The translations under genes were made by a program, and so were the position numbers. A DNA stretch of 51,762 nucleotides from Bacteroidales bacterium (GTDB lineage Bacteria > Bacteroidota > Bacteroidia > Bacteroidales > P3), in assembly GCA_017439185.1 (NCBI GenBank), contig JAFRTM010000011.1, positions 1 through 51,762 of the forward strand, written 5' to 3'. Of this stretch, positions 9,808-36,400 are shown piece by piece. The stretch's first letter is position 1, and each line of letters starts with the position of its first letter. The notes beneath the pieces are model-generated. The model was not told where the DNA came from. It ran no database searches and saw only the letters and a list, made by a program, of their open reading frames with translations.

Positions 9808-10308
9808 ATGAAAAGGAACATAATAATATTGATATTGATGGTTGCGGTTGTATCGGTAGCCGTAGCGCAGCGTCCCAACCGAAAGGCAGAGCCGGTGACG
9901 GTGAGCAACAACCGTTTTGCAAGTACCGAGCTGATAAAGAAGAACAAGGACTTTATGGGGGATAAGACTAAAAATGAAAAGGACAACGCAACGACAGGAG
10001 CTCAGCGTCATTTCGTGTATATAATAGAAAGTCTCGAAGTAGACGAGAGTGAGGCAATCGATGTGAACATACTTGTAACGGTCAATCCGTCTAACAACAA
10101 GTTGACGGTGAAGGTCACGCCCAGTGAGTCGGGAATGCTGTATGAGTTGATTGATGGCACGCAGGCTTGTTTGGAACACAAACCGCTTCGTGGGCAGAAT
10201 ACCAATATCTCCTTCTCCCGTTACCACGAAGGGGAATATGTGCTGAAGGTGCAGAACGCGGAAGGGAAATATAGCAAATTCAAAATAGTAAAAACAATTA
10301 ATAACTAA
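9808..10308 (+). CDS. Small secreted protein, DUF3244-like
   Basis: 166 residues with a clear signal peptide (IIILILMVAVVSVAVAQ). The C-terminal 80 or so residues form a beta-sandwich-like stretch ending in HEGEYVLKVQNAEGKYSKF. This pattern (G-x-Y-x-L-x-V, then a gap, then F-x-I-V-K) resembles DUF3244 or a reduced T9SS type A end, but the YPNP start of a sorting domain is missing. It is 22 bases after atpB and 11 before pgk, so probably co-transcribed. Function unknown. Confidence 0.7.
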   Translation: MKRNIIILILMVAVVSVAVAQRPNRKAEPVTVSNNRFASTELIKKNKDFMGDKTKNEKDNATTGAQRHFVYIIESLEVDESEAIDVNILVTVNPSNNKLTVKVTPSESGMLYELIDGTQACLEHKPLRGQNTNISFSRYHEGEYVLKVQNAEGKYSKFKIVKTINN

Positions 10309-10319
10309 TATATAGAGCT

Positions 10320-11510
10320 ATGAAGTCGATAAAAGATGTAAATTTTGCCGGAAAAAAGGTTCTGTTGAGAGTGGATTTCAACGTGCCTACCGACGAGTAC
10401 CGGACAATCACCGACGACACTCGTATACGCGAGTCACTCCCTACAATTAAAAAACTTCTTTCAGACGGAGCATCGGTAATACTGATCGCCCACATGGGAC
10501 GTCCGAAGAACGGAGTAGATCCCAAACTCAGTCTCGACCACGTGGCTCAATATCTTGGTTTGTTGCTCAAGCAACAGGTTCTTTTCACTCACGACTTGTT
10601 GGGCGACAAGGTTACCGAGATGGTTAACGCCATGAAGCCGGGCGAGATAATGCTGCTCGAAAACATAAGGTTCTACGAGGGAGAAACCAAAGGCGATGTG
10701 GCACTTGCCGAGCAGTTGGCTAAGTTGGGCGACTGCTATGTGAATGACGCATTTGGAGCAGCTCACCGTGAACACAGTTCCACGGCTGTTATAGCCCGTT
10801 TCTTCCCCAACGACAAATATTTCGGTTTCCTGATGGAGAACGAGATAAAGAATCTGCAGTACCTGCTTGACAAACCCGAGCATCCGTTTACCGCTATCAT
10901 CGGAGGCTCTAAGATTAGCTCTAAGATAGATATATTGTATAACCTTATCCCGAAGGTCGACAATATGATCATCATCGGAGGTATGCGTTATACTTTCACC
11001 AAGGCCATGGGAGGCAAGATAGGAAACAGCATACACGAAGATGACAAGTTGGACACTGCTTTGGAACTTATAAAGAAAATGGACGAGGCAGGCGTGAAAT
11101 ATTACTTGCCTATCGACTGCGTGGTAGTTGACCGTTTTGCCAACGACGCCAATCGTATGATAACCAAAGGAGACGAGATTCCCGATGGTTGGGAGGCAGT
11201 GGACTGCGGTCCCAAGAGCAGCGAACTTTTCCGTGAGGTGATTCTGCAGAGCAAGACTATTCTGTGGAACGGTCCTGCCGGTGTGTTCGAGATGCACAAT
11301 TTTGCCAAAGGTACTAACAATATAGCAAAAGACGTGGCTGAGGCTTGCGGTCACGGTGCATTTGCAGCCATAGGCGGTGGCGACTCTGTCGCTGCAGTCA
11401 AACAGATGCACTTGGCAGACCGTATGAGTTACGTCTCCACAGGTGGCGGAGCAATGCTCGAATACCTGGAAGGCAAACAGCTGCCGGGTATCAAGGCGAT
11501 AATGGAATAG
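10320..11510 (+). CDS. pgk: Phosphoglycerate kinase
   Basis: Glycolytic enzyme: 1,3-bisphosphoglycerate + ADP to 3-phosphoglycerate + ATP. 396 residues, normal length. Landmarks: LRVDFNVPTD at the N-terminus, HMGRP, LENIRFYEGE, AFGAAHREHSS, IIGGSKISSK, NGPAGVFE and GGGDSVAAVKQ near the C-terminus. ATG start. The following radical-SAM gene begins 4 bases after the stop, suggesting one transcript. Confidence 0.98.
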   Translation: MKSIKDVNFAGKKVLLRVDFNVPTDEYRTITDDTRIRESLPTIKKLLSDGASVILIAHMGRPKNGVDPKLSLDHVAQYLGLLLKQQVLFTHDLLGDKVTEMVNAMKPGEIMLLENIRFYEGETKGDVALAEQLAKLGDCYVNDAFGAAHREHSSTAVIARFFPNDKYFGFLMENEIKNLQYLLDKPEHPFTAIIGGSKISSKIDILYNLIPKVDNMIIIGGMRYTFTKAMGGKIGNSIHEDDKLDTALELIKKMDEAGVKYYLPIDCVVVDRFANDANRMITKGDEIPDGWEAVDCGPKSSELFREVILQSKTILWNGPAGVFEMHNFAKGTNNIAKDVAEACGHGAFAAIGGGDSVAAVKQMHLADRMSYVSTGGGAMLEYLEGKQLPGIKAIME

Positions 11511-20181: not shown

Positions 20182-20189
20182 TATCTTTG
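20182..20189 (+). promoter_or_regulatory. -7 box for the Ser-rich repeat protein
   Basis: TATCTTTG, 24 bases before ATG 20214, divergent to the tRNA promoter. The very short leader rules out the upstream start at 20187. The -33 region is only A-rich. Confidence 0.5.
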
Positions 20190-20213
20190 CAGCGCAAATT
20201 AAACATTATCAAT

Positions 20214-21524
20214 ATGAAAAAAATCTTTCTAATTGTTGCAATATTAGCACTTTCGCACTCGCTTTTTGCAAATTCGGTACGTTATTTTACCTATTCGCAG
20301 GCCGAAAGAACCGTCCGTCACCTCAATGCGCAGGACGAGTTGATGATCTATTGTGGCTATTCCGATGAGATTGAAACCTACGTACTCGTCAACGAGGTAT
20401 GGGCCGAACGTGTCAACTCCCAGTTCTATGAGATTTGGCTCTACGGCTACGATGCCTACACCGGCGACGAAATCTATATGCCCATCGACCTGGGTTGCAT
20501 CTGGCTCTACAACCGTACCGGCATGCGTATGTACAACGCTGCCACCGTGTTGCGTTTCCGCCACTCCCACAGGACTCCCACATGGAGCTGGGTGATGCCG
20601 CCCTATCGCCCCTTCCATCGTAGGTTCCACGCCCCCGGATTCCTCTATACCTACCACTATGACATCCATCAGCCGGGTTGGTGCCATCCTTATCACGGTC
20701 ACAACCCCTATAACTATCCTCCTTATTATATGCGTCATCGTCATGATCCCGTGCCGATGCATCGTGAGCCCTTCACGCCCGGTATCGAGATGCCGCGCAC
20801 TATGACTCCCGACGGACATGGCTATCTGGGCAACACCCGAGGCAACAATACCACCCGTACCACCAGCGATCCTACGAGATACCAGACCTCCTCTACGGCA
20901 AGCACTTCGAGAACAACCTCGACCAAAGACTCGCCCAACACTATAGTGGTAAGTCGTGGCTCTTCTACCTCGGCCAATACCAGCAGTAGCAACAGCCGTG
21001 GCAGCAGTTCCTCTAACACAGTCAACCAGGGCAGCAGCAACTCACGCGGCTCCAGCTCCTCGTCCTCCACACAGACCAGCAGCTCCAACAGCCGTGGCTC
21101 CAGCAGTTCCTCTTCCGTGAACACTGGCAGCAGCAACTCCCGTGGTTCCAGCTCCTCGTCCTCCACACAGAGCAGCAGCTCTAACAGCCGTGGCTCCAGC
21201 AGTTCCTCTTCCGTGAACACTGGCAGCAGCAGTTCACGTGGTTCCAGCTCTTCGTCTTCCACGCAGAGCAGCAGCTCCAGCAGCCGTGGTTCCAGCTCTT
21301 CGTCGTCGGTCAACAACGGCAGCAGCAGTTCACGCGGTTCCAGCAGCTCGTCTTCCACACAGAGCAGCAGCTCCAGCAGCCGTGGTTCCAGCACCACCTC
21401 TACCAACACCGGTAGCAGCAGCTCACGCGGTACCAGCACCTCTTCCTCCACTTCCTCCAGTAGCCGTGGTTCCTCTACCACTACCAATTCCCGTAGCAGC
21501 AACAGCGCCACTCGTACCAGATAA
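20214..21524 (+). CDS. Secreted protein with Ser-rich 16-residue repeats
   Basis: 436 residues from ATG 20214; signal peptide IFLIVAILALSHSLFA. Residues 20-120 form a compact domain with YFTYSQAERTVRHLNAQDEL and YDAYTGDEIYMPIDLG. Residues 120-205 are rich in Pro, Tyr, His and Arg (PPYRPFHRRFHAPGFLYTYH). From residue 247 to near the end there are about twelve units starting SRGSSSSSS, mostly 16 residues, alternating between a TQSSSS type and a VNTGSS type. No family is recognised. The tail could be an extended, glycosylated or matrix-like linker; that is inference. A reverse-strand reading frame through the repeats is a Leu/Glu shadow. Confidence 0.75.
   Translation: MKKIFLIVAILALSHSLFANSVRYFTYSQAERTVRHLNAQDELMIYCGYSDEIETYVLVNEVWAERVNSQFYEIWLYGYDAYTGDEIYMPIDLGCIWLYNRTGMRMYNAATVLRFRHSHRTPTWSWVMPPYRPFHRRFHAPGFLYTYHYDIHQPGWCHPYHGHNPYNYPPYYMRHRHDPVPMHREPFTPGIEMPRTMTPDGHGYLGNTRGNNTTRTTSDPTRYQTSSTASTSRTTSTKDSPNTIVVSRGSSTSANTSSSNSRGSSSSNTVNQGSSNSRGSSSSSSTQTSSSNSRGSSSSSSVNTGSSNSRGSSSSSSTQSSSSNSRGSSSSSSVNTGSSSSRGSSSSSSTQSSSSSSRGSSSSSSVNNGSSSSRGSSSSSSTQSSSSSSRGSSTTSTNTGSSSSRGTSTSSSTSSSSRGSSTTTNSRSSNSATRTR
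20952..21506 (+). repeat. In-gene tandem repeat, 48-bp units in 96-bp pairs
   Basis: Each unit encodes SRG-Ser-rich 16-mers. Units alternate TQ and VN variants, giving a 96-bp higher-order period for the central six or so units. The first and last units are degenerate (14-15 residues). Copy number is a likely site of slippage between strains. Confidence 0.85.
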
Positions 21525-23388: not shown

Positions 23389-25491
23389 ATGGCGACTCTC
23401 GGCTTGAAGTGGCGTTTTGTTTTCTATGTGCTGTTCTTTGGAGTAGGCTGTTGGGTGGGCACGTTGGAATCCGGCCATCATCTGTCGCCGTTCCTGCTGG
23501 CAGCCGTGCTGGCGTTTATGCTCCTGTTCGGCGTGGCCTTTGTGGCCAAGCCTTTGGCGTTCCTGCACCGGAAGGGTGTGGCTGTGCCGCTGTTTGCGGC
23601 GAGTGCACTGCTGTTGGGCTTCTCGGCAGGGGAGGTGCGCAACCCGTTGAATTCGCCATCCCATTTCGCACGGTTCATAGAGTCGGGCGAGCCGTCGGTG
23701 GTGAAGGTGACGGTGAGTGACCGGCCCCATCCGACAGGGCCCTATAACCGTGTGGAGGCAAGGGTCGATAACGTCCTTGTGGGCGACAGCAGTGTGGCCA
23801 CTTCGGGCATGATGTTGCTGTATGTCGATACCGCTACGGCCTTGTCCCAGGGCGAGTTGTTCCTGCTGTGTGCCAAAATCTACGAGCTGCAGCCTCCGCG
23901 TAATCCCCACGCCTTCGACACCTGCCGCTATTGGCTCTCGCGCAACATCTGCCACAGAGCCTGGGTTAACGGCGGCGAGCTGTTCAGCCTCAAAAACGAC
24001 AGGAAAGGTCTTCCCCAGAGGGTTGCCGACTACCGCGAACATCTTATCTCGAAGGTCCAGGCCACCGGCCTTTCCCCGTCGCAGAAGGGTCTGATGCAGG
24101 CGCTTGTGCTCGGGGACCGTTCGGCTCCCGGCGAGGCCACCGAGGAGGCTTTCCGTCGGTCGGGAATCACCCATCTCCTTTGTGTGTCGGGCCTTCATGT
24201 GGGCATCGTGGCTCTTTTGCTGCTGTTGCTGTTGAAGCCTTTGAGGGCGTTGAAGGGAGGGCGTCAGGCTGCTGCAATCCTTACGGTCGCTGGAGTGTGG
24301 GTGTTTGTGGCTGTCACCGGTATGGCGCCGTCCACCCTGCGAGCAGGCGTCATGTTCTCCTTTATGATTCTCACCCGCCTGTGGCACCGTCGGCCGCCGA
24401 TGCTCAACGCCATAGTGTTCTCGGCGTTGGTGCTGCTGATGGTCCGTCCTGCCATGGTCCACGAGATGGGGTTCCAGCTCTCCTACGCGGCGGTGTCGGC
24501 CCTGGTGCTGTTCACCTCTCCCATACGGCGGAAGATACCGGTGGAGGTGTGGGTCGAGAAGGTCTGGAATCCGCTGAGGGTCGATGATCCCAAGGCCCGT
24601 CAGTTTGTCATCTATCCCTACCTGCTGTTCCAGTGGCTGTGTGTTCGGCTGGTGGACTGCACCATAGCCGCCCTGGTGGCGCAGCTTGCCACGCTACCGC
24701 TCTCGCTCTACTATTTCCATCAGTTTCCGGTCTATTTCTTGCTTGCCAATGTGATGGTGGTGCCGTTTGCCTCGTTGATGTTGGGAGCCATGGCGTTGCT
24801 GCTGGTGCTGCTGTGCTGTGGCCTGAGGCCGTTGTTCTTGGAGCGTGCGGTAGGCGAGATGCTTTCGTGGCTCCAGGGCTTTGCCGACTGGGTCTCCTCC
24901 CTTCCGGGAGCGGTGGTGCAAGGCATCTATTTCGACCGTCCGATGCTGCTGGTGGGCGTCGGGGTGGTGGTGAGCTGCTGTGTGCTGCTCTACCGGCGCC
25001 GGTGGCAGTGGGGAGCTCTCGCGGCAGCCTTGCTGGTGATGCTTGTGGCCTACGACCTCCTGAACCTCCGCCAGGCCTCGCGCCAGCACCTCTGGACCGT
25101 CTATTTCCACCGTCGTCCCACCGTCGAGATATTCTCGGGCAACCGGAGCCTGGTGCTCTACGACGCTGCCCACGGAGCCGACTATCTGGACTACCTGGTG
25201 AAAGACAACGACATCGCCCACCGCATAAGCTCGCGTACTCTTCAGCGTATAGACCTGCCGCTTACCTTGACTTCCTCTTCTGGTGGCAAATACCTTGTGG
25301 TGGCAGGCCATCATGACTATTACCGTTACGATGCCACGATACTGCAAGATGTGGACACCCTTGTGCTGGTGAGTCCCAGCAGGCGAGGGGAGGAGAGTTG
25401 GAGAGATATGGCAGAGGAGGCCAACGTTAGAGTATATAATATAAAAACCGAAGGGTCGCTTACAAGAGATTTCATACCGATAGAGAAATAG
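23389..25491 (+). CDS. comEC: ComEC/Rec2 family DNA uptake channel
   Basis: 700 residues. N-terminal hydrophobic segment and DUF4131-like region (PHPTGPYNRVEARVDN), then the competence domain. The signature is ALVLGDRSAPGEATEEAFRR followed by SGITHLLCVSGLHVGIVALL, then multiple membrane helices to about residue 570. The C-terminal 130 residues are soluble, but the metallo-beta-lactamase domain (HxHxDH) of some ComEC proteins is absent, which is common in Bacteroidota. Predicted role: single-stranded DNA passage across the inner membrane in natural transformation. Whether this strain is competent cannot be told. Confidence 0.9.
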   Translation: MATLGLKWRFVFYVLFFGVGCWVGTLESGHHLSPFLLAAVLAFMLLFGVAFVAKPLAFLHRKGVAVPLFAASALLLGFSAGEVRNPLNSPSHFARFIESGEPSVVKVTVSDRPHPTGPYNRVEARVDNVLVGDSSVATSGMMLLYVDTATALSQGELFLLCAKIYELQPPRNPHAFDTCRYWLSRNICHRAWVNGGELFSLKNDRKGLPQRVADYREHLISKVQATGLSPSQKGLMQALVLGDRSAPGEATEEAFRRSGITHLLCVSGLHVGIVALLLLLLLKPLRALKGGRQAAAILTVAGVWVFVAVTGMAPSTLRAGVMFSFMILTRLWHRRPPMLNAIVFSALVLLMVRPAMVHEMGFQLSYAAVSALVLFTSPIRRKIPVEVWVEKVWNPLRVDDPKARQFVIYPYLLFQWLCVRLVDCTIAALVAQLATLPLSLYYFHQFPVYFLLANVMVVPFASLMLGAMALLLVLLCCGLRPLFLERAVGEMLSWLQGFADWVSSLPGAVVQGIYFDRPMLLVGVGVVVSCCVLLYRRRWQWGALAAALLVMLVAYDLLNLRQASRQHLWTVYFHRRPTVEIFSGNRSLVLYDAAHGADYLDYLVKDNDIAHRISSRTLQRIDLPLTLTSSSGGKYLVVAGHHDYYRYDATILQDVDTLVLVSPSRRGEESWRDMAEEANVRVYNIKTEGSLTRDFIPIEK

Positions 25492-25910
25492 AACGAAGTT
25501 TTCTATTAATAAAGACCTCAAAAGCCGTTTTTGAAATCCAATCCAGTCCACATTTTCTTGTTGATATTGGTTAAGTGGGTGTGTTATAGCTGGTTGCTTG
25601 TCTTCGTTTTTAGGGATGAGGTGCTATACATAGTACACATATAGTACACACATAGTACACACATTTGACTTTTGTCTTACTTATATATTACTTTGGTATT
25701 ACTTTGATATTACCTGTGTTTTTCTGAAAATGGTTGACAGTTTTTGTCTTTCGGCGGATGTTGGTTGACGGGTTATTTTTTTTAGACTGTTTTTTGTTGT
25801 CGGATATGACTAAATAGAGTGGTGATAACTGCGATTAACAAACTTTAACATTTTTGTAATAAATTAACTACTAAGGTATTATGGAGGGTGTTGATTGAGG
25901 GCTAAAGAAA
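25492..25910. other. AT-rich gap between comEC and the LysM remnant
   Basis: No gene is supported. The only structure I see is the 11-bp array at 25630-25662. This gap marks the left edge of the accessory island. Confidence 0.6.
25630..25662. repeat. Intergenic tandem repeat, three 11-bp units
   Basis: ATAGTACACAT, ATAGTACACAC, ATAGTACACAC in direct succession. Same period as the arrays at 3532, 3650, 19883 and 39839 but a different word. Confidence 0.85.
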
Positions 25911-26219
25911 ATGGCTGTTTTAAAAGGGGATATTTTCGTCTATAATAGTGAGAGGGTGTATTTTGCGGGAGCCAAAAACGACAGTCGAGAGACAGGCAGA
26001 TGAGCCATCGAGGTGGAGAGAACATAACGGTGCGTGGCAGACCCATACAGAAGACAGGGAGCGACATATTATGTCGTAAGAGACACGCACGAGGACATAT
26101 CAGAGACGAAGGATGGATGCCAAGTTGGAGTTGGCGTCCCTTGCCGGGGAAGGGTGTCGGCGAAGGAAACCGATGCCCCCGGCTTGAAAATGAGAAGGTT
26201 ACAGCGTAGCTGTCGGTGA
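25911..26219 (+). pseudogene. Decayed fragment of a LysM-repeat protein
   Basis: One reading frame, interrupted by TGA at 26001 and a TAA soon after, reads like the C-terminus of a two-LysM protein. Near the end VVRDTHEDISE resembles the LysM start (V-x-x-GDT-x-x-DIA) and APGLKMRRLQR resembles the LysM end (PG-x-x-L-x-L). Earlier IFVYNSERVYFAGAKNDSRE and AIEVER resemble a preceding LysM and its helix. In Bacteroidales such repeats close glucosaminidase-type cell-wall enzymes. No upstream catalytic part is seen, so this is a remnant. The LysM assignment rests on my reading alone. A long reverse frame over the same DNA has no family features. Confidence 0.42.
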
Positions 26220-26278
26220 GGTGGATATTTTGTTGAAAAAAATACCAGCTATGGCACCACGAAATGAAAAATAAAGCA

Positions 26279-26286
26279 TATCTTTG
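26279..26286 (+). promoter_or_regulatory. -7 box for the restriction-modification operon
   Basis: TATCTTTG lies 23 bases before ATG 26310. The -33 position has no TTTG, so the box is a weak or regulated candidate. Confidence 0.45.
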
Positions 26287-26309
26287 CAAATTGAAATGTT
26301 ATATTGAAA

Positions 26310-29183
26310 ATGTTCTACCAACTTATAAAGAACAAGCGAGACCAGTGGAGTCAATCGCCATCGTGTCCAGTCAAGACGCTTGTTGACTACATCGAGAGCC
26401 GAGGCATGATGCGTGATGCTCAAATTGAGGCAATAAAGACATATCTCTTCTTGAAGATTGCCTGTGGCAACAGACCTCTCTGGGAGTTGTTTTATAAAGG
26501 CATCCTTTCTTCTCCCGAAACGATAGCCATCACTGGTACAGAACGGGATATCCTTGGCAACAACATACCGGCATTGGCCTTGATGGAATATGCCACTCTG
26601 CCGAACAGAAAGGGCAACCCTTTGGCTCCTGAACTTGTCAAAAACATCAAGTCCAACCCTACTGCCATCAACTATGAACAGGTGTTCCGCCAACTCTTCT
26701 ATAATGTTAGTTATCCTGACTATCTCTTTAGCCTCCCGATGGGCGCAGGCAAGACCTATCTGATGGCGGCATTCATATATCTCGACCTTTATTTTGCACA
26801 GAACGAGCCAGACAATCCCGTCTTTGCCCACAACTTCATAATTCTGGCTCCATCAGGCCTGAAATCATCCATTATACCATCGCTTCGCAAGATACAGAAT
26901 TTCGATCCCTCATGGGTGTTGCCAGAGCCCGCAGCCGGCAATATCAAGAGGCTTATCAAGTTTGAAATCCTTGATGAGCAGAAAAGTGCCAAGAAAAGCA
27001 ACCGCACCAAGAATCCCAATGCTCAAAAGTTAAACATGCACCTTGGATGTGAGGGTGAAGGACTTATGGGTCTTGTGGCAGTTACAAACGCTGAAAAAGT
27101 AATTCTCAACCGTTGGGACAAAGACAAAGATGCTAAACTTTTTGACTCAGAAGACATCATCGCCAACGAACTCCGCCAAATCATTGGCAAGATACCACAA
27201 ATGGCGGTATTTATCGATGAGGTACACCACGCTGCTGACAGCGAAATCAGACTTCGCCAAGTAGTAACCTACTGGGCTGAAGGGAATAACTTCAACTGTA
27301 TGCTGGGTTTCTCAGGCACTCCTTATCTGGAACATGCCGAAAGAGTTCAGATAAATGACTCTATCACCGTCAGCAACACCGATCTGTCCAATGTGGTCTA
27401 TCATTATCCGTTGATTGATGGCATCGGTAATTTCCTGAAATATCCTGATATCCGCACTGCCGATGCCGATAGCGAGACAATCATCCGCAATGGTTTAACC
27501 CACTTCCTCGACAGGTTCAAAGACAAAGTCTATGCCGGTGGCTTATGTGCCAAGATGGCAATCTATTGCGGGAAAATTGAGACGCTTGAAGAAAAGGTCT
27601 ATCCTCTTGTGGCCGAAGTGTTGCAGTCCCATGGCATCAACCCGGCCGAAGCAGTGTTGAAATACCACGACGGTAACAAGCAGTATTCAGCCCCTGAAGG
27701 TGCAGAATCGGCTTTCGCTGCGCTCGATACCTCTCTTTCGATGATTCGAGTTGTTTTACTGGTACAGATTGGCAAGGAAGGGTGGGATTGCCGCAGCTTG
27801 GCTGGAGTCATACTCTCGCAACAGGGCGACTGTCCAAAGAACATGGTGCTGCAAACCAGCTGCCGTTGTCTGCGTCAAGTGGAACGAGGCAAAACAGAAG
27901 AGGCCGTAATCTGGCTCAACAAGTACAACGCCGACACTCTGAACACCCAGCTAAGCAAGACCCAGAACACCTCTGTCAAGGAAATCAATGCCAAGCATCA
28001 GGCCGAGCCGGTGATGATTAAACGGTATTCCCGAATGGAGGTGCAAAAAGTGCCGCCGATTGACTTCTACCAACTAAAGGTTGTCTATAACACCTTGTTG
28101 ATCGAGGAAACTCCCGACACGAAAAACAGATTACAAACCAAGTGCATTGAAAAGAATCATCACACACTTGTCAATGTGCAAGACTTGTCAGGAAAAGTAA
28201 CCAAAACCTATGCTCTCGACACCCAAACAGGAGAACGAATTACCTATACCGACTGGCTCCATACCATCGCTAAAGAGAGTTTTGATACTCTTTCTGTTCA
28301 AGAGATGAAAATATATGATGCAGATTTGCGCAGCATCTTTTCCAAAATCACCGTTGAAAAAGAGGGTACTCGCTTCACTGACGAGCAATACAATCAGCAA
28401 CGCATCAGGTCACTTATCCGCCAAGCCTTTGTGCCTCGGCGCGACTTTGAAACCCAGGAAGAAGTTATTTCCACTGAGGCAAGTCTGCTCCAGATTGAAA
28501 AACTAACTTCGCCAGTGGAGTCTTATGTCGGAGACAAACGCTACTACCCAGATCAACAGACTGTACAAGAGATTACCGATGACGACAAGCAGCCCAACGT
28601 TATTACCCCCGAGATGCAGAAGGCGATAGATACGCTCAAGGCCGCCGGGATGCCAATCCCCGACTATATGCGAGGCAAGGAGCATCATCCTGAGCGCAAC
28701 CACACCTATCATTATATGCCTTACCGTTTCGACAGCTCGTTGGAACGTGAATATCTTGAACAGGCTTTGGCTTGCATCAAAGACCAAAACATAGAAGTGT
28801 ACTACAATGGGGATGACCAGCTCACCAACTTCAAGATAGACTGCTTCAAGCGGAGTGGTCGGCATTGGGTGCGCATAGGCAAGTATGTGCCCGACTTTCT
28901 TGTCCTCAGTCGCAATGCCAAAGGTGGCATCCACAAGGTGATTATTGTAGAGACCAAAGGCGAAGGATTTGCCGCCAAGTTCGCCGACCGCCGCCACTTT
29001 ATGGAGTCCCAATTCATCAAGCAGAACAATGAAAAGTTCGGCTACCGCCGTTTTGAATTCCTGTATATTGAAGACACGCTCAAACCTGCGCTACGGCAAC
29101 AGAAAATATTTGAGTCCATTAACAGTTTCTTTAATGAAAAAGCAGTTACCGAGGAATCCTCGGTAGTTGGACCTAAACAATAG
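26310..29183 (+). CDS. res: Type III restriction enzyme, helicase-nuclease subunit (Res)
   Basis: 957 residues from ATG 26310 (a TTG two codons earlier is possible). It is a superfamily 2 translocase-nuclease: Walker A LPMGAGKT about 142-149, DEAH-like box FIDEVHH about 300, motif III GFSGTPYLE about 332, and motif VI QTSCRCLRQVERGK about 512. The C-terminus carries a PD-(D/E)XK nuclease: YVPDFLVL near 859 and VETKGEG near 880. Type III Res proteins bind Mod, translocate or diffuse on DNA, and cut when two unmodified sites face each other. The order res then mod is the reverse of the usual mod then res. The mod gene follows after 50 bases. Confidence 0.9.
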   Translation: MFYQLIKNKRDQWSQSPSCPVKTLVDYIESRGMMRDAQIEAIKTYLFLKIACGNRPLWELFYKGILSSPETIAITGTERDILGNNIPALALMEYATLPNRKGNPLAPELVKNIKSNPTAINYEQVFRQLFYNVSYPDYLFSLPMGAGKTYLMAAFIYLDLYFAQNEPDNPVFAHNFIILAPSGLKSSIIPSLRKIQNFDPSWVLPEPAAGNIKRLIKFEILDEQKSAKKSNRTKNPNAQKLNMHLGCEGEGLMGLVAVTNAEKVILNRWDKDKDAKLFDSEDIIANELRQIIGKIPQMAVFIDEVHHAADSEIRLRQVVTYWAEGNNFNCMLGFSGTPYLEHAERVQINDSITVSNTDLSNVVYHYPLIDGIGNFLKYPDIRTADADSETIIRNGLTHFLDRFKDKVYAGGLCAKMAIYCGKIETLEEKVYPLVAEVLQSHGINPAEAVLKYHDGNKQYSAPEGAESAFAALDTSLSMIRVVLLVQIGKEGWDCRSLAGVILSQQGDCPKNMVLQTSCRCLRQVERGKTEEAVIWLNKYNADTLNTQLSKTQNTSVKEINAKHQAEPVMIKRYSRMEVQKVPPIDFYQLKVVYNTLLIEETPDTKNRLQTKCIEKNHHTLVNVQDLSGKVTKTYALDTQTGERITYTDWLHTIAKESFDTLSVQEMKIYDADLRSIFSKITVEKEGTRFTDEQYNQQRIRSLIRQAFVPRRDFETQEEVISTEASLLQIEKLTSPVESYVGDKRYYPDQQTVQEITDDDKQPNVITPEMQKAIDTLKAAGMPIPDYMRGKEHHPERNHTYHYMPYRFDSSLEREYLEQALACIKDQNIEVYYNGDDQLTNFKIDCFKRSGRHWVRIGKYVPDFLVLSRNAKGGIHKVIIVETKGEGFAAKFADRRHFMESQFIKQNNEKFGYRRFEFLYIEDTLKPALRQQKIFESINSFFNEKAVTEESSVVGPKQ

Positions 29184-29233
29184 AATAATAACAACTTGTT
29201 CCATTTTGGAATAGGTTCAATATACGATGACCT

Positions 29234-31114
29234 ATGGCAATAAAATACATACCTTATTATCCCAATACCCTTGAGGGGCAAGCGTTGCTGGACAATTTTG
29301 TGCGGACGCGGAGGATGCTTTCTTATCGGGACAACAATGTGGTGGTGGAGCATATACAAAGGGGGATGCCGTTGTATGAAGTGCAGCAGGTGGAACATGT
29401 GGGTGCAGAGAGCAATGGAAATATGCTACTGCGGGGCGAATGTCTGTCGGCATGCGCCTACCTGAAGGAGCAGGGCATTGAGGTGGACTTGGTCTATATC
29501 GACCCACCATTTGCATCGGGTGCCGACTATGCCAAGAAGGTGTATGTGCGTCGCAACCCCAAGGTGGCAGAGGCTATACAGCAAGCGGAAAGCGAATTGG
29601 ATGTAGAGGAGCTGAAAGCCTTTGAGGAAAAGATGTATGGCGACGTGTGGGACAAAGAACGTTATCTTAACTGGATGTATGAGAACCTGATGTCCATCAA
29701 AAGTGTGATGAGTGAGCATGCCAGCATCTATGTACATCTTGACTACCATATTGGACATTATGTCAAGATTCTTATGGATGAGATATTTGGGGAGGATAAT
29801 TTCAGAAATGAAATAATATGGCACTATACTAATAAAATGAGTGGTACAACAAGCCCTCACGATTTCGTATGCGAACATGATACGATTTTTCGTTATTCTA
29901 AAAGTGAAGGTTATTTATACAATGTCATTACAGAGGGAAGGGACGAGCCTGTCAAACAGAGTAAACGAGTTAAAGTAGATGGAAAAAACATGAGGGCTCG
30001 TGATGAAGCGGGTAATATTATTTATGAGATTTCCGTAGATAAGAAAGTTAAAGATGTATGGGAAATACCCTATATAGCTTCCACTGACTCTCAGCGTGTT
30101 GACTATGCCACCCAAAAACCAGAAGCCTTATTAGAACGTATTATCAAAGCCAGTAGCGATGAGGAAATGCTGGTGGCAGACTTCTTTGGCGGCAGCGGGG
30201 TGACTGCTGCTGTCGCTCAAAAACTGGGACGACGCTTTATCCACAACGACATTGGGATTAACAGCATCCAAACCACCCGCGACCGCCTACAGGCTCTCGG
30301 TGCCAGCTTCGACATCAAGGAGGTGCGCGATGGTGTGTCGCTCTACCGCAATCCCGTGCAGACAATGGAGAAACTGCGCAGCCTTATCCTTGGCTTGCGT
30401 AATGAGGACAAACTTGACAAGTTCTGGGAGGGTAGCATCCACGACAGCCAGTGCGGTATGATGCCAGTTTACCTGCCAAACCTGATGGATAGCACCACTC
30501 GCTTGCTCGACCGTCCGCTGATGAATCGAATAATTCACGAGGCAATGCCCGATTTGCCCGATGATGTGCGTAAGGTAATTGTCTACTACATCGACATTAC
30601 TGACCGGCAGGATATAGAAGCCTTCATACACGAAAACAACGATGTGTCTATGGCAGAGATAGAACTGCGCGACCTGAAACAAGTGCTCGACAATGTGGTG
30701 GTGGAAGACGAAGCCGAGTTCAATTTGAGCCAGGTGCAGGATGGCATTCTCGAAAAATGGCAGGTAAGCATTGAGCGATTCCATAGTGACCGCGTGAAGC
30801 GCAAGATTGATGACTACAACATCAACGGCCAGACACAGGCCTCAGCCAAAGGGAAAGAGTTCAAGCCCATTCTCATCAGCGAAGAAGGCTTGGAAACCAT
30901 CGAGTGGCTTTCTGTTGACTGTTCGACGGCCGAAAAGACAGCCCCCTGGCACAGCGACGCAGAAATCAAAATAGACCGCCTCGGCTACGTCATTGAGAAC
31001 GGCAAGAAAACCACCCGTTTCTGGGACGGCACCATCCGCACCGACAACCCTCCCCTCCGCCTCAAAATCCGCAACATCTGCGGCGATGAAAGTGTATTTA
31101 TACATGGAGAATAA
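29234..31114 (+). CDS. mod: Type III DNA methyltransferase (Mod), beta class
   Basis: 626 residues. Catalytic motif IV DPPF at 90-93 (in [16 protein letters not shown]) comes before the AdoMet motif [12 protein letters not shown] at about 314-324. [12 protein letters not shown] precedes motif I, as in beta-class N6-adenine methyltransferases of type III systems. The region between motif IV and motif I, where the target-recognition domain lies in this class, is coded by AT-rich DNA (29800-30090, about 30-40% GC by line). The flanking parts of the same gene reach about 60%, a sign of domain exchange. The C-terminal 280 residues probably contact Res. The target sequence cannot be predicted. Confidence 0.9.
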
Positions 31115-31144
31115 AGACAATCATCACTTTTATTTATTCAAAAA

Positions 31145-31930
31145 ATGAGTTCGAAAGGTAAACACAGTACTAATAAGCCATTCCATTCTGGAGTTAGAGA
31201 GGCTCAGATAAAAGTATTGGAACGTAAGATAGATAATCTTGGCAATTTGATTAAAAGTCATCAAATCGCTTATGAGTCATACATCCAAATGCTCTCTTCG
31301 ATGGTTGGTCACGATATGAAAAATTGTTTGATTACAATTGATGGATTACTTTACAATAAAAAGAATAATGAAAATTGGACTCCTGATGAAATGCAAGCAT
31401 TAGAACAATCATTAAAGATGATGCATGATTCAATTCTACAATTTCAAAATGTCTCTATGGTTTCAGATACTACAAAATTTGAACTAAAAAAATTAGTATC
31501 GGCTATTACCTCTATACATAGAAATGTTTTTCAGAAGGAGAAGATTGATTTTGTCACACACTATAGTGATAATAACATTGTAATAGAACAGCCATACCAT
31601 ACTATACAGATAATAATAAACAATCTAATAATAAATGCTGTAAAGGCAATGTCCAATGTTGATCAAAAGAAGCTGGCTCTAGATATTGATATAAAGGAAG
31701 GACTATGTCATTTAAAAGTCCGAGATAATGGCTGTATTATTGATGAAAATATTTCCCGTAATATATTCAAATATGGATTCTCAACAACAGGAGGTTCAGG
31801 TATAGGTCTATTTCAGGTCAATGAATGTTTAAAGCGAATGAATGGTGGGATATCTGTTGTTAATGAGCCCGAAGATTCAGAATATGTAAAATCATTCGCT
31901 ATATATTTCCCTCTCAATTCAAAGATTTAA
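31145..31930 (+). CDS. Soluble histidine kinase
   Basis: 261 residues with no signal peptide or membrane helix. Residues 18-50 form a likely coiled coil (AQIKVLERKIDNLGNLIKSH). The phosphoacceptor is His56 in VGHDMKN. The ATPase domain has the N box NNLIINAVKAM (159-169), G1 DNG (194-196), an F-box-like FKYGFST (208-214) and G2 GGSGIGLF (216-223). With no dedicated sensor domain, the signal must come through the coiled coil, a partner protein or DNA. It sits 30 bases after mod and 13 before the response regulator. Sampled lines are about one third GC, well below the flanks. Confidence 0.88.
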   Translation: MSSKGKHSTNKPFHSGVREAQIKVLERKIDNLGNLIKSHQIAYESYIQMLSSMVGHDMKNCLITIDGLLYNKKNNENWTPDEMQALEQSLKMMHDSILQFQNVSMVSDTTKFELKKLVSAITSIHRNVFQKEKIDFVTHYSDNNIVIEQPYHTIQIIINNLIINAVKAMSNVDQKKLALDIDIKEGLCHLKVRDNGCIIDENISRNIFKYGFSTTGGSGIGLFQVNECLKRMNGGISVVNEPEDSEYVKSFAIYFPLNSKI

Positions 31931-31943
31931 AAAAGAAAGCAAT

Positions 31944-32852
31944 ATGTATAAAAGTATTTTAATTATTGATGATGAAGAACAACAGGCAAAAAACCTAAAA
32001 GAAGCATTGTCAAAAAGTCTTCCTGATTGTAAATTCGAAATTGCATCTTCCGAAGAAGAGATTGAGTCTAAAATCAATCATTACTTTTTTCTCATTGCCA
32101 TCGTTGACCTTCGAATGGATGGCCGACAAACAGATGGCATTGGTATAATACAGGAGATTAATGAACGCAATCCTATCGCAAAAGTAATAGCTGTATCTGC
32201 ATATTCATCAGAATATGCAGAGGCATTAAAAAAATTAATTGACGGCCGGAATATTTTTAGATTCAGTTCCAAATCATCATTTAGTACTTGGTTGCCTGAA
32301 CTTGAAGAAATAATCAAGGATTGTTTTTTGCAGTTTGAAGACAACCACTATATTGGACAACGTGCGTTATTGTCGTATTATAATGATGCCAAAAATGAAA
32401 CTGATACATTTAAAAAAGGGCAAAGTTTCGAGTATTTTATATCTACTTTATTCAGCAATATGGGGTATAGTAGGATTCGAATGAGGGTGAAAGACCGTAG
32501 TTCCAATGAGGTCGATTTGATAGTACGAAACGAAACGACAGATTTATTTCTTAACAAATTTGGAAAATATTTTTTAGTGGAATGTAAAAACAAACCCAAT
32601 GAAGCTGTTGGTAAAAATGATTTTATAGTATTTTACAACAAACTGCGTAATGCATCTTCAATGTCTGAACTGGGAATTCTTTGTACATCAGGATACATTG
32701 CAAGAACCACCTATTTAGAGGCCATGAGAGAAAGCCAAGGTGAGAAAAAAGTTATTTTTCTATCAAATCCAGAGATTGTCAGAATGATTACTTCAGACAA
32801 CATCCGAGAAGAATTCAAGAACATTCTTGATGAGCAAGTAAAAGACAACTAA
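31944..32852 (+). CDS. Response regulator fused to an Mrr-like nuclease domain
   Basis: 302 residues. Receiver domain 1-125: acidic pocket Asp9/Asp10 (LIIDDEE), phosphoacceptor Asp55 (AIVDLRMDG), Ser85 (VIAVSAYS) and Lys110 (FSSKSS). The output domain, 155-290, is not a DNA-binding helix-turn-helix. It reads as an Mrr_cat-type PD-(D/E)XK fold: GQSFEYFISTLFSNMGY (Glu163), NEVDLIV (Asp191), YFLVECKN (Glu213, Lys215), then ELGILCTSGYIARTTYLEA and VIFLSNPEIV. All expected metal-binding residues are present, so it should be an active endonuclease if folded. Paired with the kinase upstream, phosphorylation could switch cutting on or off. About 27% GC in one sampled line, so probably acquired. Confidence 0.87.
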   Translation: MYKSILIIDDEEQQAKNLKEALSKSLPDCKFEIASSEEEIESKINHYFFLIAIVDLRMDGRQTDGIGIIQEINERNPIAKVIAVSAYSSEYAEALKKLIDGRNIFRFSSKSSFSTWLPELEEIIKDCFLQFEDNHYIGQRALLSYYNDAKNETDTFKKGQSFEYFISTLFSNMGYSRIRMRVKDRSSNEVDLIVRNETTDLFLNKFGKYFLVECKNKPNEAVGKNDFIVFYNKLRNASSMSELGILCTSGYIARTTYLEAMRESQGEKKVIFLSNPEIVRMITSDNIREEFKNILDEQVKDN

Positions 32853-32942
32853 AATAATCCAGCCTTTCTCCTATGCACTATTCTGCTCCAACAGAATAAC
32901 CATAAATAATTCATACTGAACATACCGATGCCGTCTATAAGT

Positions 32943-32993
32943 GAGCACGTAAATGAGTATGTAAATGAGCATGTAAATGAGCATGTAAATGAG
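32943..32993. repeat. Intergenic tandem repeat, four 12-bp units
   Basis: GAGCACGTAAAT, GAGTATGTAAAT, GAGCATGTAAAT twice, then GAG. The 12-bp step differs from the 11-bp arrays elsewhere. Confidence 0.85.
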
Positions 32994-33371
32994 TGATGCC
33001 GATAAATGCTGGAGCAAATACATAACATAATGTTCAAGTAGACCAAAAAGTGGACTATAAGGAAGCACAGAAAGTGGTACAGAAAATGAATTGAAAAAAA
33101 CTACAAACAATGAAGAATATTCGCCGTATGGGGCCAGATAAAGGCAGCCATTGGTAAGTAATAAATAAGGACACAAACGGATGGTTAGAATCTGTTAGAA
33201 ATGAGTGGTTGAGAAAAAAAAACAGAAAACGAGACCGGAGGAAAACCGCGATACAACAAATCTAGCATAGTAATATCCGATATCCGTAAGAGAGGAAATC
33301 GACTTACTTTCTTCCCTATGGACATAAGATACGATATCGTAAAGATAAATTTTGTTATTATTAAAAATAAT

Positions 33372-33402
33372 AGTATCTTTTTTCCTACGGAAAGAAGATA
33401 CT
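33372..33402. other. 14-bp perfect-stem hairpin
   Basis: AGTATCTTTTTTCC and GGAAAGAAGATACT pair over all 14 positions (one G-T) around a TAC loop. A looser copy of the same words (ACTTTCTTCC, then AAGATAC) lies about 70 bases upstream. There is no T run on either side. Role unknown. Confidence 0.65.
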
Positions 33403-33439
33403 GCGTCTCGGGAATCCAATAAAAAAATTGCTTTTTTTC

Positions 33440-33469
33440 TTGCTATTCCGCTCGACTTTTGTATCTTTG
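33440..33469 (+). promoter_or_regulatory. Promoter of the alpha-2-macroglobulin-like gene
   Basis: TTG (33440-33442), 19 bases, TATCTTTG (33462-33469), giving a leader of about 20 bases before ATG 33497. Confidence 0.6.
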
Positions 33470-33496
33470 TACCTATTAATATAAACAGTTTTGACT

Positions 33497-36400
33497 ATGA
33501 AGAAGGTGTTTTCTTTGCTGATTGTCAGTTTGTTGATATCATCGGCTATGGCACAGGTGAACTATGAAAAGTCTTGGAAAGCGGTGGATTCGCTCTACAA
33601 GGAGCGGCAGTACAACTCGGCCTACGGGAAATGCAAGCCGCTGTATGAGGCGGCGGTGAAGGCGGGTGACTCGCCCAACATGCTGAGGGGTGCCTATCTG
33701 CTTTCCCGCATAGAGGGTGCCTACCGCGAAGGGGCGGCCGACTCGGCGGAAATCCGCTACAGGGCGCTGATTCCGAAGCTGGCACCGGTGGAGAAGGCTC
33801 TGGCCGAGGTATTCCTGGCCAAGTTCTACCACGACTATATGATGCACAACCGTTGGAGGATAAGGGACAACAGCAACACCGACGAGAGCGGCCTGGACTA
33901 CAAGCTGTGGTCGGAGGAGAGGTTCAGGAACGAGGTGGAGAAGCATGTGGCGTTGGCCCTGGAGGGTGAGCGGCTGCTGAAGAGCACCAAGGTGGAGGAT
34001 CAGAAAAGCTACTGCGAGAGGAGCTACCGGGGAAGCACCAACGTGACGCCGACGCTCTACGACGTGGTGATGAACTACGCGGTGGACTGCGCGTCGGACT
34101 ACGGCAAGAGGGTGGAGCTGATAAAGAAGCTCATAGACTTCCACAAGGGTGATGCCGACGAGTTGAGGATATACTACGACCTGAGGCTGCTGGACGAGCT
34201 GGCGAGAACTCCGAACGGGGAGAAGCCTACGGACAAGACCTACCGCAGGTATATAGAGAAATACAGGGGTACGAAATGCGAGTGGATAGTGTCGTTCTAT
34301 GAGGAGGCGGCACGGTGGCTGCTGGGCGAGGGACGCCGGGTGGAGGCCAAGGCGATATGCGACGAGGCGATAGCGCGCTACGGCGAGAGCACGCTGATAG
34401 GTGGCTGCAAGACCATGTCGGCGGACATTGCCCATCCCAACATAAAGCTGGAGATGCTGGGAAGCGAGATGGAGGGTCACGACCTGCTGGCGAGGGTGAC
34501 GGTGAGGAATATCGACCAGCTGTATTTCCGCGTGATAAAGAAGGATAAAGCCTACGAAAAGATATATTCGAGCGACCAGCTGCAGGCGGTCTACAGGAAG
34601 GCCAAGGTGGAGAAGGAGTGGAGCCAGAAGCTGCCCCACCGCACCGACTACGGCGAGCAGAAGGCCTACGTGTATATCCCGCCGATGGAGCATGGGAAAT
34701 GGATACTGCTGGTGTCGTCGAGCAAAGACTTCCAGGAGAACGGCATGGTGGCGAAGCAGTTTGACTGCTGCGAGGCACAGATAGTGTCGGCGGCTCCGGG
34801 GTGGAGCAACTATATGGAAGGCTATGTGGTGACCCGCACCGACGGCAAGGCGTTATCGGGGGTGAAGGTGGAGATGGAAGCCTACGACTACAACAAGGAC
34901 ACCCGCACGACGGTGGCGCAGACGACCACCGACAGCAAGGGCTACTACCACTTCGACAACCCCAAGGGACTTTACCGCAACTACAGGGTGATAGCCACCT
35001 ATAAGGGCTACACGATGGACCGCAGCGCCGAGACGATACAGCAGGAGAGCCTCTCGAGCGGACGGGGCCTGCACTGCGTGATAGACAGGCCGGTCTATAA
35101 GCTGGGCGAGGAGGTGAGCTTCGCCTACGTGTGCTACGAGACCAACCACCGCACCGAAGGCAAGACGCTGAAAGGATGCCATATAACGGTGGAGCTCTAC
35201 GACGTGAACAGGAAGGTGCTGGACAGCGTGAAGCTGGTGAGCGACGAGTTCGGCATGTGCCACGGCAGTTTCCGTCTGCCGACCGACGCCTTGCCGGGCA
35301 ACTTCTCGCTGAAGGGCAGGATAAAAGACTCCTACGTGACCGAGAGCACCACGCTGAACGTGCAGGAATACAAGCAGCCCAAGTTTGTGGTGACGATGGA
35401 GGGGGACGGCGGCAAGCACGTCTTCGGCAAGTCTATGACGGTGAAGGGACGGGCGGCGAGCTACAGCCAGGTGCCGATATCGGGCGCCAAGGTGAAATAT
35501 ACCGTGACCCGCAGGGAGATGTACCGCCCCTGGCGATGGTGGTTCAACCCGAGACCGGTGGTCACCACGGTGGCGACCGGCGAGACGGAGAGCGCAAGCG
35601 ACGGCACGTTCGACGTGACTTTCGTGCCGATGCCCGACTCGGCAGTGGAGCTCAGCAGGAAGCCCTGCTTCATATATACGGTGAAAGTTGACGTCACCGA
35701 CATCAACGGCGAGACCCATGACAAATATTTCACCACGCGGGTGGGATACGAGAACAGCTACCTCTCGCTCGGGGTAGGGGAGGAAGAGGAGAACCTCTCG
35801 AGCCTGAGCGTGGGCCACTACAACCTGGACGGCGCACCGCTGGAGGGCAAGATATATGTGAGCATAGAGAAGCTCAAGTCACCCGCCAAACCCCATCTGA
35901 AACACGACCTGTTCGACGCCGACGCCTACCAGGGCATCAGCCAGGCCGAGTTCGAGAAGCGCTATACGCTGATGGGATACGACAACACATACTTCGACCC
36001 CGCGGGATGGGCAGTGGAGCGCAAGGTGCTGAGCACGCAGGTGACGATAGCCAAAGGCGAAGAGGACAACGAGATAGACTTCTACGAGCTGGCCACCGGC
36101 GCCTATAGAATCAAGGCGTGGACCACCGACAGCGAAGGCAACCGCGTGGAGACCGAGCGCATCACCATGGTGACCAACACGTCCGACGACATGCCGCAGA
36201 CCCAGAACCTCCTGTGGTCGAAGCTCGACAGGAGCAAATACCAGGCAGGCGACAAGGCAGTGCTCAGGTTCGGCTCGCGCTATACGGGACTGAAGGTCTA
36301 TTACTGCCTCTCGATGGGCAAAAAGATACTCGACCGCAGGATAGTGGACATCAACAACGAGGTGAAGGAGATAGAGATACCCGTCACCGAGGAGAGCGTA

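Follow-up and report, generated by a model that had tools for sequence, protein, structure and literature searches.

In the defence system Detocs (DtcA, DtcB and DtcC), a histidine kinase signals to a response regulator that carries a cell-damaging enzyme (PMC11249213, PMC11728103); its best-described type uses a PNP effector (PMC11249213), and a separate receiver-only protein, DtcB, acts as a buffer (PMC11728103). PorX is likewise a response regulator with an enzymatic output, in which phosphorylation drives dimerisation of a receiver joined to a phosphodiesterase (PMC10951265), whilst CnuA of the type I-B CoCoNuTs brings a receiver-like domain into a conflict system (PMC11090510), and two-component-like genes of the Response_reg_2 and HEF_HK families cluster with restriction–modification (R-M) genes (PMC8011034). 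Statements cited to these sources, here and below, cover the accessible parts of each. Here we describe a pair of adjacent genes from a Bacteroidales bacterium (GenBank assembly GCA_017439185.1, contig JAFRTM010000011.1), located in a stretch of 51,762 nucleotides, the whole of which is referred to as the window. The first gene encodes a histidine kinase and the second a response regulator that ends in a predicted nuclease domain (hereafter the receiver-nuclease). Detocs, PorX and the receiver-bearing CoCoNuTs provide precedents, and we consider it probable, on balance, that the pair is a two-gene mobile anti-phage cassette with a phosphorelay-gated nuclease.

Both open reading frames (ORFs) were recovered intact where a preliminary description of this DNA had placed them, and 13 bases separate the stop codon of the kinase from the start of the receiver-nuclease. 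The features of the pair are:

31145..31930, + strand: histidine kinase gene, 261 residues, ORF intact, HATPase_c domain; short basic N-terminus
31310-31312, + strand: codon of kinase His56; the N-box has Asn164, the G1 box Asp194 and Gly196, the G2 box Gly217, Gly219 and Gly221
31944..32852, + strand: receiver-nuclease gene, 302 residues, ORF intact, Response_reg and Mrr_cat domains
31944..32309, + strand: receiver domain, residues 1 to about 122, with Asp9, Asp10, Ser85 and Lys110
32106-32108, + strand: codon of Asp55, the predicted phospho-acceptor of the receiver
32400..32849, + strand: predicted Mrr_cat PD-(D/E)XK nuclease domain, residues 153-302, which also holds Glu189
32430-32432, + strand: codon of Glu163
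32514-32516, + strand: codon of Asp191
32580-32588, + strand: codons of Glu213-Cys-Lys215

Pfam assigns HATPase_c to the kinase (E = 2.8e-15) and two domains to the second protein, Response_reg (E = 1.6e-10; 41.6 bits against a cut-off of 30.2) and Mrr_cat (PF04471; E = 6.5e-8; 33.1 bits against a cut-off of 21). Adjacent kinase and receiver genes with intact phospho-residues place the pair among two-component systems, and a score above the curated cut-off, together with an E-D-ExK core, places the C-terminal domain in the PD-(D/E)XK / Mrr_cat family; the sequence gives good support to both the two-component interpretation and the nuclease domain.

Eight relatives, drawn from genomes and phage contigs, are 25–50% identical to the window receiver-nuclease, with a kinase gene directly before the effector in most loci. 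In an alignment of the nine proteins (window, L033, L034, L040, L046, L011, L013, L014 and L015, the labels denoting loci), the receiver residues Asp9, Asp10, Asp55 and Lys110 are invariant, as are Glu163, Glu189, Asp191, Glu213, Cys214 and Lys215 of the nuclease; position 85 is serine in eight of the nine, the L015 protein being misaligned there and carrying threonine in another alignment. Asp9, Asp10, Asp55, Lys110, Glu163, Asp191, Glu213 and Lys215 all fall within 33 invariant positions of 302, with a chance value of about 9e-9 that is indicative only, as the rows are related. Mrr_cat scores above its cut-off in the window protein and in seven of the eight relatives, the L015 protein lying below it (19.0 against 21). 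A wider alignment of eight rows adds a Kozakia plasmid gene, L060 (IMG/VR) and L018 (the window's order), in each of which Pfam recognises Mrr_cat but not a receiver; Glu163, Asp191, Glu213 and Lys215 are invariant in all eight rows, and Glu189 varies. The complete receiver and the C-terminal core in the Mrr_cat arrangement, both recognised in the preliminary description, are borne out by these comparisons, in which the catalytic residues do not vary freely.

An AlphaFold2 model of residues 131–302, built from a four-row alignment, has a mean predicted local distance difference test score (pLDDT) of 84.8 and a predicted template-modelling score (pTM) of 0.83. Its elements run in the order helix 155–172 (Glu163), strand 178–184, strand 189–195 (Asp191), strand 209–215 (Glu213, Lys215), helix 224–235 and strand 241–248, and this predicted order is the topology expected of the PD-(D/E)XK core as generally known. 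The full-length model (pLDDT 85.0, pTM 0.69) matches solved receiver domains well, including PorX chains, which are presumably matched through the receiver. Nuclease-type matches of the C-terminal domain listed from the PDB are R.BspD6I, Avs4, Can2, Shedu (8ti9, E = 0.038) and EcoO109I, all weak, and in a library of predicted viral structures four matches reached E <= 0.001, of which two bear the name restriction endonuclease; a PDB sequence search gave one match (E = 0.17), which we took as chance. The structural side of the preliminary description held in part, as the PD-(D/E)XK topology was predicted and no other fold was found, but matches to solved folds were weak; the fold comparison is no more than consistent with a nuclease.

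These matches bear on the alternative that the protein is a transcriptional response regulator with an inactive nuclease fold used for DNA binding only. Most response regulators are transcription factors, and the best solved-structure matches of the domain are chains of RNA polymerase subunit 5, which has a nuclease-like fold without activity. An inactive fold, however, accords poorly with core catalytic residues that are unchanged throughout the nine receiver-nucleases and the wider alignment, and we rejected this alternative as very improbable.

The kinase was previously described as soluble, with a phosphoacceptor histidine and N, G1 and G2 boxes, and this description stands. His56, Asn164, Asp194, Gly196 and Gly217, Gly219 and Gly221 are invariant across six kinases, and likewise in a separate alignment of five kinases that includes L013. 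No Pfam model of a HisKA-type phosphoacceptor domain matched the kinase at E <= 0.1, so that the assignment of His56 rests on its conservation. The protein is devoid of any strongly hydrophobic segment (highest 19-residue mean hydropathy 1.18). Six soluble kinases and the L043 kinase fragment are basic over their first 25 residues, where the net charge lies between +4 and +8; a charge of +4 is also attained by 32 of 180 background ORFs, in a set that includes spurious ORFs and is compared with kinases that are related. The L013 kinase is also at +4, but has a strong N-terminal hydrophobic stretch, and by eye the N-terminus of the L014 kinase resembles it. One might speculate that the basic tail binds nucleic acid or membrane.

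In seven loci (window, L011, L013, L033, L034, L040 and L046) a kinase gene with an intact frame lies directly 5′ of the effector gene. At the kinase/effector junctions of these loci and of L014, with starts as listed, the two genes either share 4–37 bases or have 1–13 between them. Among these seven intact pairs the kinases are 20–41% identical and the receiver-nucleases 41–59%. All-against-all BLAST of ORFs of at least 40 residues was run over ten loci, using positions 25000–34000 of the window, the first 9 kb of L014 and contigs that differ in length. Besides the kinase and effector, the only genes in common were a portal gene and a head gene, both shared by L040 and L043, together with one unrelated histidine kinase in L046. 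The guanine-plus-cytosine (GC) content of the pair is below that of its flanks in 7/7 loci (0.23–0.38 against 0.30–0.60). In the compared loci the pair is an autonomous two-gene cassette. A search for an empty site through the flanking genes matched only the alpha-2-macroglobulin gene, in three relatives, and revealed no insertion border.

Directly upstream of the pair in the window is a type III R-M operon, absent from the preliminary description:

26304..29183, + strand: type III restriction subunit Res; ResIII 32.5 bits (cut-off 22.5), RE_endonuc 21.0 bits, just below its cut-off of 23.4
29234..31114, + strand: type III methyltransferase Mod; N6_N4_Mtase, PADLOC MTase_III

The operon ends 30 bases 5′ of the kinase gene on the same strand, with no + strand terminator-like site between Mod and the kinase by a consensus scan. 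Such an arrangement might suggest that the pair is an accessory or regulator of the operon, providing an inducible second nuclease or control of restriction, and Response_reg_2/HEF_HK genes do cluster with R-M genes (PMC8011034). Neither protein of the pair matches PF19191 (HEF_HK) or PF19192 (Response_reg_2), however, PF00072 and HATPase_c being matched instead. BLAST with the window Res and Mod (E <= 1e-4) found nothing in the compared stretches, some of them short, of the nine other loci, so that what is seen is probably a shared defence neighbourhood rather than a functional link. The GC content of Res/Mod (about 0.40–0.52) differs from that of the pair (0.30–0.35), which argues for separate arrival; the first part of the downstream alpha-2-macroglobulin gene is at 0.57–0.59. 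On the missing Res/Mod matches near other copies and the differing GC content we rejected a role in the R-M operon, which appears highly unlikely. Two tandem repeats were also noted in the window: a 12-base unit (TAAATGAGCATG, 4.7 copies) at 32938-32993, soon after the stop codon of the receiver-nuclease, and a 96-base unit (4.4 copies) at 21030-21451, inside an ORF (20187-21524) with no Pfam match.

The genomes searched by genus, order, class, phylum and family form overlapping samples. In the order, 10 of 393 genomes matched at E <= 1e-5, five of them, including the window's own, over the full length; the class search returned 1 genome of 395, the window's own, and the nuclease profile 2 of 395 across the phylum, the window's own among them. 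Family searches near G232, G676 and G172 (2/2, 1/149 and 1/1) recovered only genomes already known. Five weak matches from the order search (G354, G388, G192, G322 and G122) are limited to a single half of the protein, and we excluded them from the relatives of the pair. A scan of genome contigs gave at least 12 loci, and in those listed the match is restricted to the receiver and goes no further than residue 119; these were set aside as ordinary response regulators, and the scan has no bearing on absence.

Phages carry the pair as well. Among the matches listed from IMG/VR, at least three phage contigs have the full pair (L033, L034 and L040), and a fourth, L043, has the start of the kinase at the contig end, in the same slot as in L040. 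Matches confined to the receiver (L035, L036 and L037) or to the ATPase part of the kinase (L059) were discarded as pairs. Eight of ten chosen neighbour proteins of the phage contigs matched PHROGs, and two from L033 had no match. The matches include tape measure and terminase for L033, a CI-like repressor and a DnaB helicase for L034, portal and head-morphogenesis proteins for L040, and a portal protein for L043. In L033 the pair runs antiparallel to the phage genes that flank it, the L034 pair follows the CI-like repressor gene by 1.4 kb on the same strand, and the L040 pair follows the head-morphogenesis gene by 0.3 kb. The portal proteins of L040 and L043 are 30% identical and their kinases 62% identical over 110 residues; in these divergent Mu-like phages (L040 3693-5440; L043 7905-8240) the kinase follows the head gene, in what may be a cargo slot. 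No INPHARED phage matched the effector of the window or that of L034. Among plasmids, matching was limited to the nuclease portion of one Kozakia gene, to which the L015 query added a weak Halorussus match.

Phage carriage, and in particular the position of the L034 pair past a repressor gene, could also be expected of a device for the lifestyle or stress response of the phage (lysogeny control, induction or DNA processing) that does not serve exclusion. Yet in L046, a single-contig genome of 4.5 Mb, and in L013 the pair sits between genes that, judged by eye, look like housekeeping genes, and in L014 it is near Septu-like genes; nor do the four phage contigs have any other gene in common in the compared stretches, save the head genes of L040 and L043. 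We regard a role in phage lifestyle as unlikely. Exclusion of other phages is the most likely use, because several different phages carry the pair and two loci place it near Septu-like or R-M genes.

Further observations concern individual loci. In L014 (3-4927, genome G128), PtuA-like and PtuB-like (Septu) genes are found at a distance of one ORF from the pair. L013 has a nuclease domain with a match (6e-9) to the candidate defence family PDC-S02, and in L011 (146-1234, genome G093) a PDC-S02 nuclease match (3e-141) about 5.5 kb from the pair is the sole PADLOC match near the L011, L013 and L046 pairs. On the Kozakia baliensis plasmid NZ_CP014682.1 (L012, 2331-6413), the receiver-less Mrr_cat relative precedes SIR2 and HerA genes (PADLOC matches), a locus resembling a SIR2-HerA defence operon that includes an additional nuclease gene. 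L018 (6393-7831, genome G192) has two adjacent Mrr_cat genes, the first fused to a nucleoside deoxyribosyltransferase-like domain (25.6 bits, below the cut-off) and the second a stand-alone nuclease of 177 residues from the same family as the window nuclease domain. L060 (IMG/VR, 9989-10450) is a stand-alone Mrr_cat relative of 153 residues with no receiver, and is not a pair.

Comparison with Detocs raises the possibility that the pair is a true Detocs system in which a nuclease replaces the nucleosidase. The logic of kinase and receiver-effector is the same, and PNP is named for the best-described type only, which leaves room for other effectors (PMC11249213); the Mrr_cat domain of the window protein, in place of an ATP nucleosidase, would not by itself exclude membership. 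A distant relative, L015 (155-6919, genome G172), encodes a kinase of 1,802 residues that contains GAF domains as well as two-component propeller repeats, then a receiver-only protein (143 residues; Response_reg 27.1 bits, below the cut-off) and a receiver-nuclease of 298 residues, and this three-gene layout may bridge Detocs and the two-gene layout. DefenseFinder is said to list Detocs variants that include a restriction-endonuclease type, which, if confirmed, lowers the novelty claimed for the pair, and DtcA reportedly carries TPRs. The window kinase, however, has no TPR match in Pfam at E <= 0.1, the ORF list holds no receiver-only gene next to the pair, as the preliminary description had also observed, and the two-gene loci have no third gene in common. 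PADLOC gives weak matches to its family PDC-M60, all of them within the receiver part, the presence of Detocs models in PADLOC not being established. We therefore did not file the pair under Detocs, membership of which seems decidedly doubtful: as read from its genes, it follows a Detocs-like logic but differs in having no receiver-only gene, no TPR kinase and another effector.

Other known systems share parts of the design. PorX has a PglZ alkaline-phosphatase-like output and a role in type IX secretion, whereas the window output is PD-(D/E)XK. Type IV Mrr enzymes belong to the same catalytic family but have a DNA-recognition domain at the N-terminus, where the window protein has a receiver, and the window protein comes with a kinase gene attached. 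Shedu (SduA) is also a PD-(D/E)XK defence nuclease, encoded by a single gene; its DUF4263 was unmatched by Pfam in the window protein and the eight relatives, and a weak match of one PADLOC SduA model to the receiver part of the L033 protein (3.2e-4, model positions 7-99 of 323) hints that receiver-bearing Shedu proteins may exist. CnuA and the Response_reg_2/HEF_HK genes are other genes of other families, and the accessible parts of their sources describe no receiver-Mrr fusion (PMC11090510, PMC8011034). The figure legend of DefensePredictor labels TPR, HATPase and REC in predicted, unvalidated defence systems, which are likened to the pair through those labels alone, the term 'Mrr' being absent from the accessible main text (PMC13092281). 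The accessible parts of the open-licence literature on Detocs, Mrr, response-regulator outputs, Shedu and anti-phage two-component systems likewise describe no such fusion.

The favoured reading, a phosphorelay-gated anti-phage cassette, outlines the following mechanism. The kinase would sense a signal of infection or of a competing phage, autophosphorylate on His56 with ATP, and donate the phosphate to the receiver-nuclease at Asp55. The phosphorylated receiver would then dimerise, as in the PorX precedent, or free the C-terminal PD-(D/E)XK domain, which would cut nucleic acid, most likely DNA. The incoming phage would thereby be stopped, possibly to the detriment of the cell. The circumstantial case for an anti-phage role comprises the phage-borne copies, the Septu-like neighbours in L014 and the type III R-M operon of the window; from such gene content and context an anti-phage function is likely, and the pair is probably a weapon against viruses that is traded between phages and bacteria.

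Several results weigh against this reading. The pair is rare, the window's own genome being alone among 59 of its genus (0 of the 58 others; 2 of 99 in that search in total, its own included). The window pair matches none of the named PADLOC systems, and the six immediate neighbours of pairs that were scanned (one in L011, three in L013 and two in L046) have no PADLOC match. No sensor domain is recognisable by Pfam in the window kinase. None of 769 matches of the nuclease-domain model to solved structures reached E <= 0.001, and the best 50 of the 769, sorted by hand, comprise 18 eukaryotic RNA polymerase subunit-5 chains, 10 nucleases or nuclease-bearing proteins and 22 others. In L014 the kinase gene is also directly 5′ of the effector, but its frame has one in-frame stop, and this copy may be decaying. 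Lastly, kinase and effector distance matrices are weakly correlated (Mantel r 0.47, with 196 of 5040 permutations as high), and strict co-evolution is not shown; the identities given above indicate that the sensor side diverges faster. Taken as a whole, the interpretation given in the preliminary description, an inducible anti-phage or abortive-infection nuclease gated by phosphorylation, is partly supported.

More tentatively, and with rather less than even confidence, we suggest that phages carry the pair as a minimal form of phosphorelay immunity apart from Detocs. In this scheme a fast-diverging kinase, which in most copies is soluble and has a basic tail at its N-terminus and in others has membrane segments, would activate by phosphorylation a conserved Mrr nuclease gated by its receiver, and the histidine-aspartate relay would be an exchangeable trigger of DNA destruction in conflicts between phages. 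If the anti-phage reading is correct, phosphorylation by a histidine kinase, a very widespread form of bacterial signalling, would gate a DNA-cutting enzyme directly, with no transcription step, and defensive two-component signalling would extend beyond the destruction of ATP. The pair would also offer a compact two-protein system for probing the infection cue of a soluble kinase, and would add a further cargo weapon to those borne by phages of different kinds.

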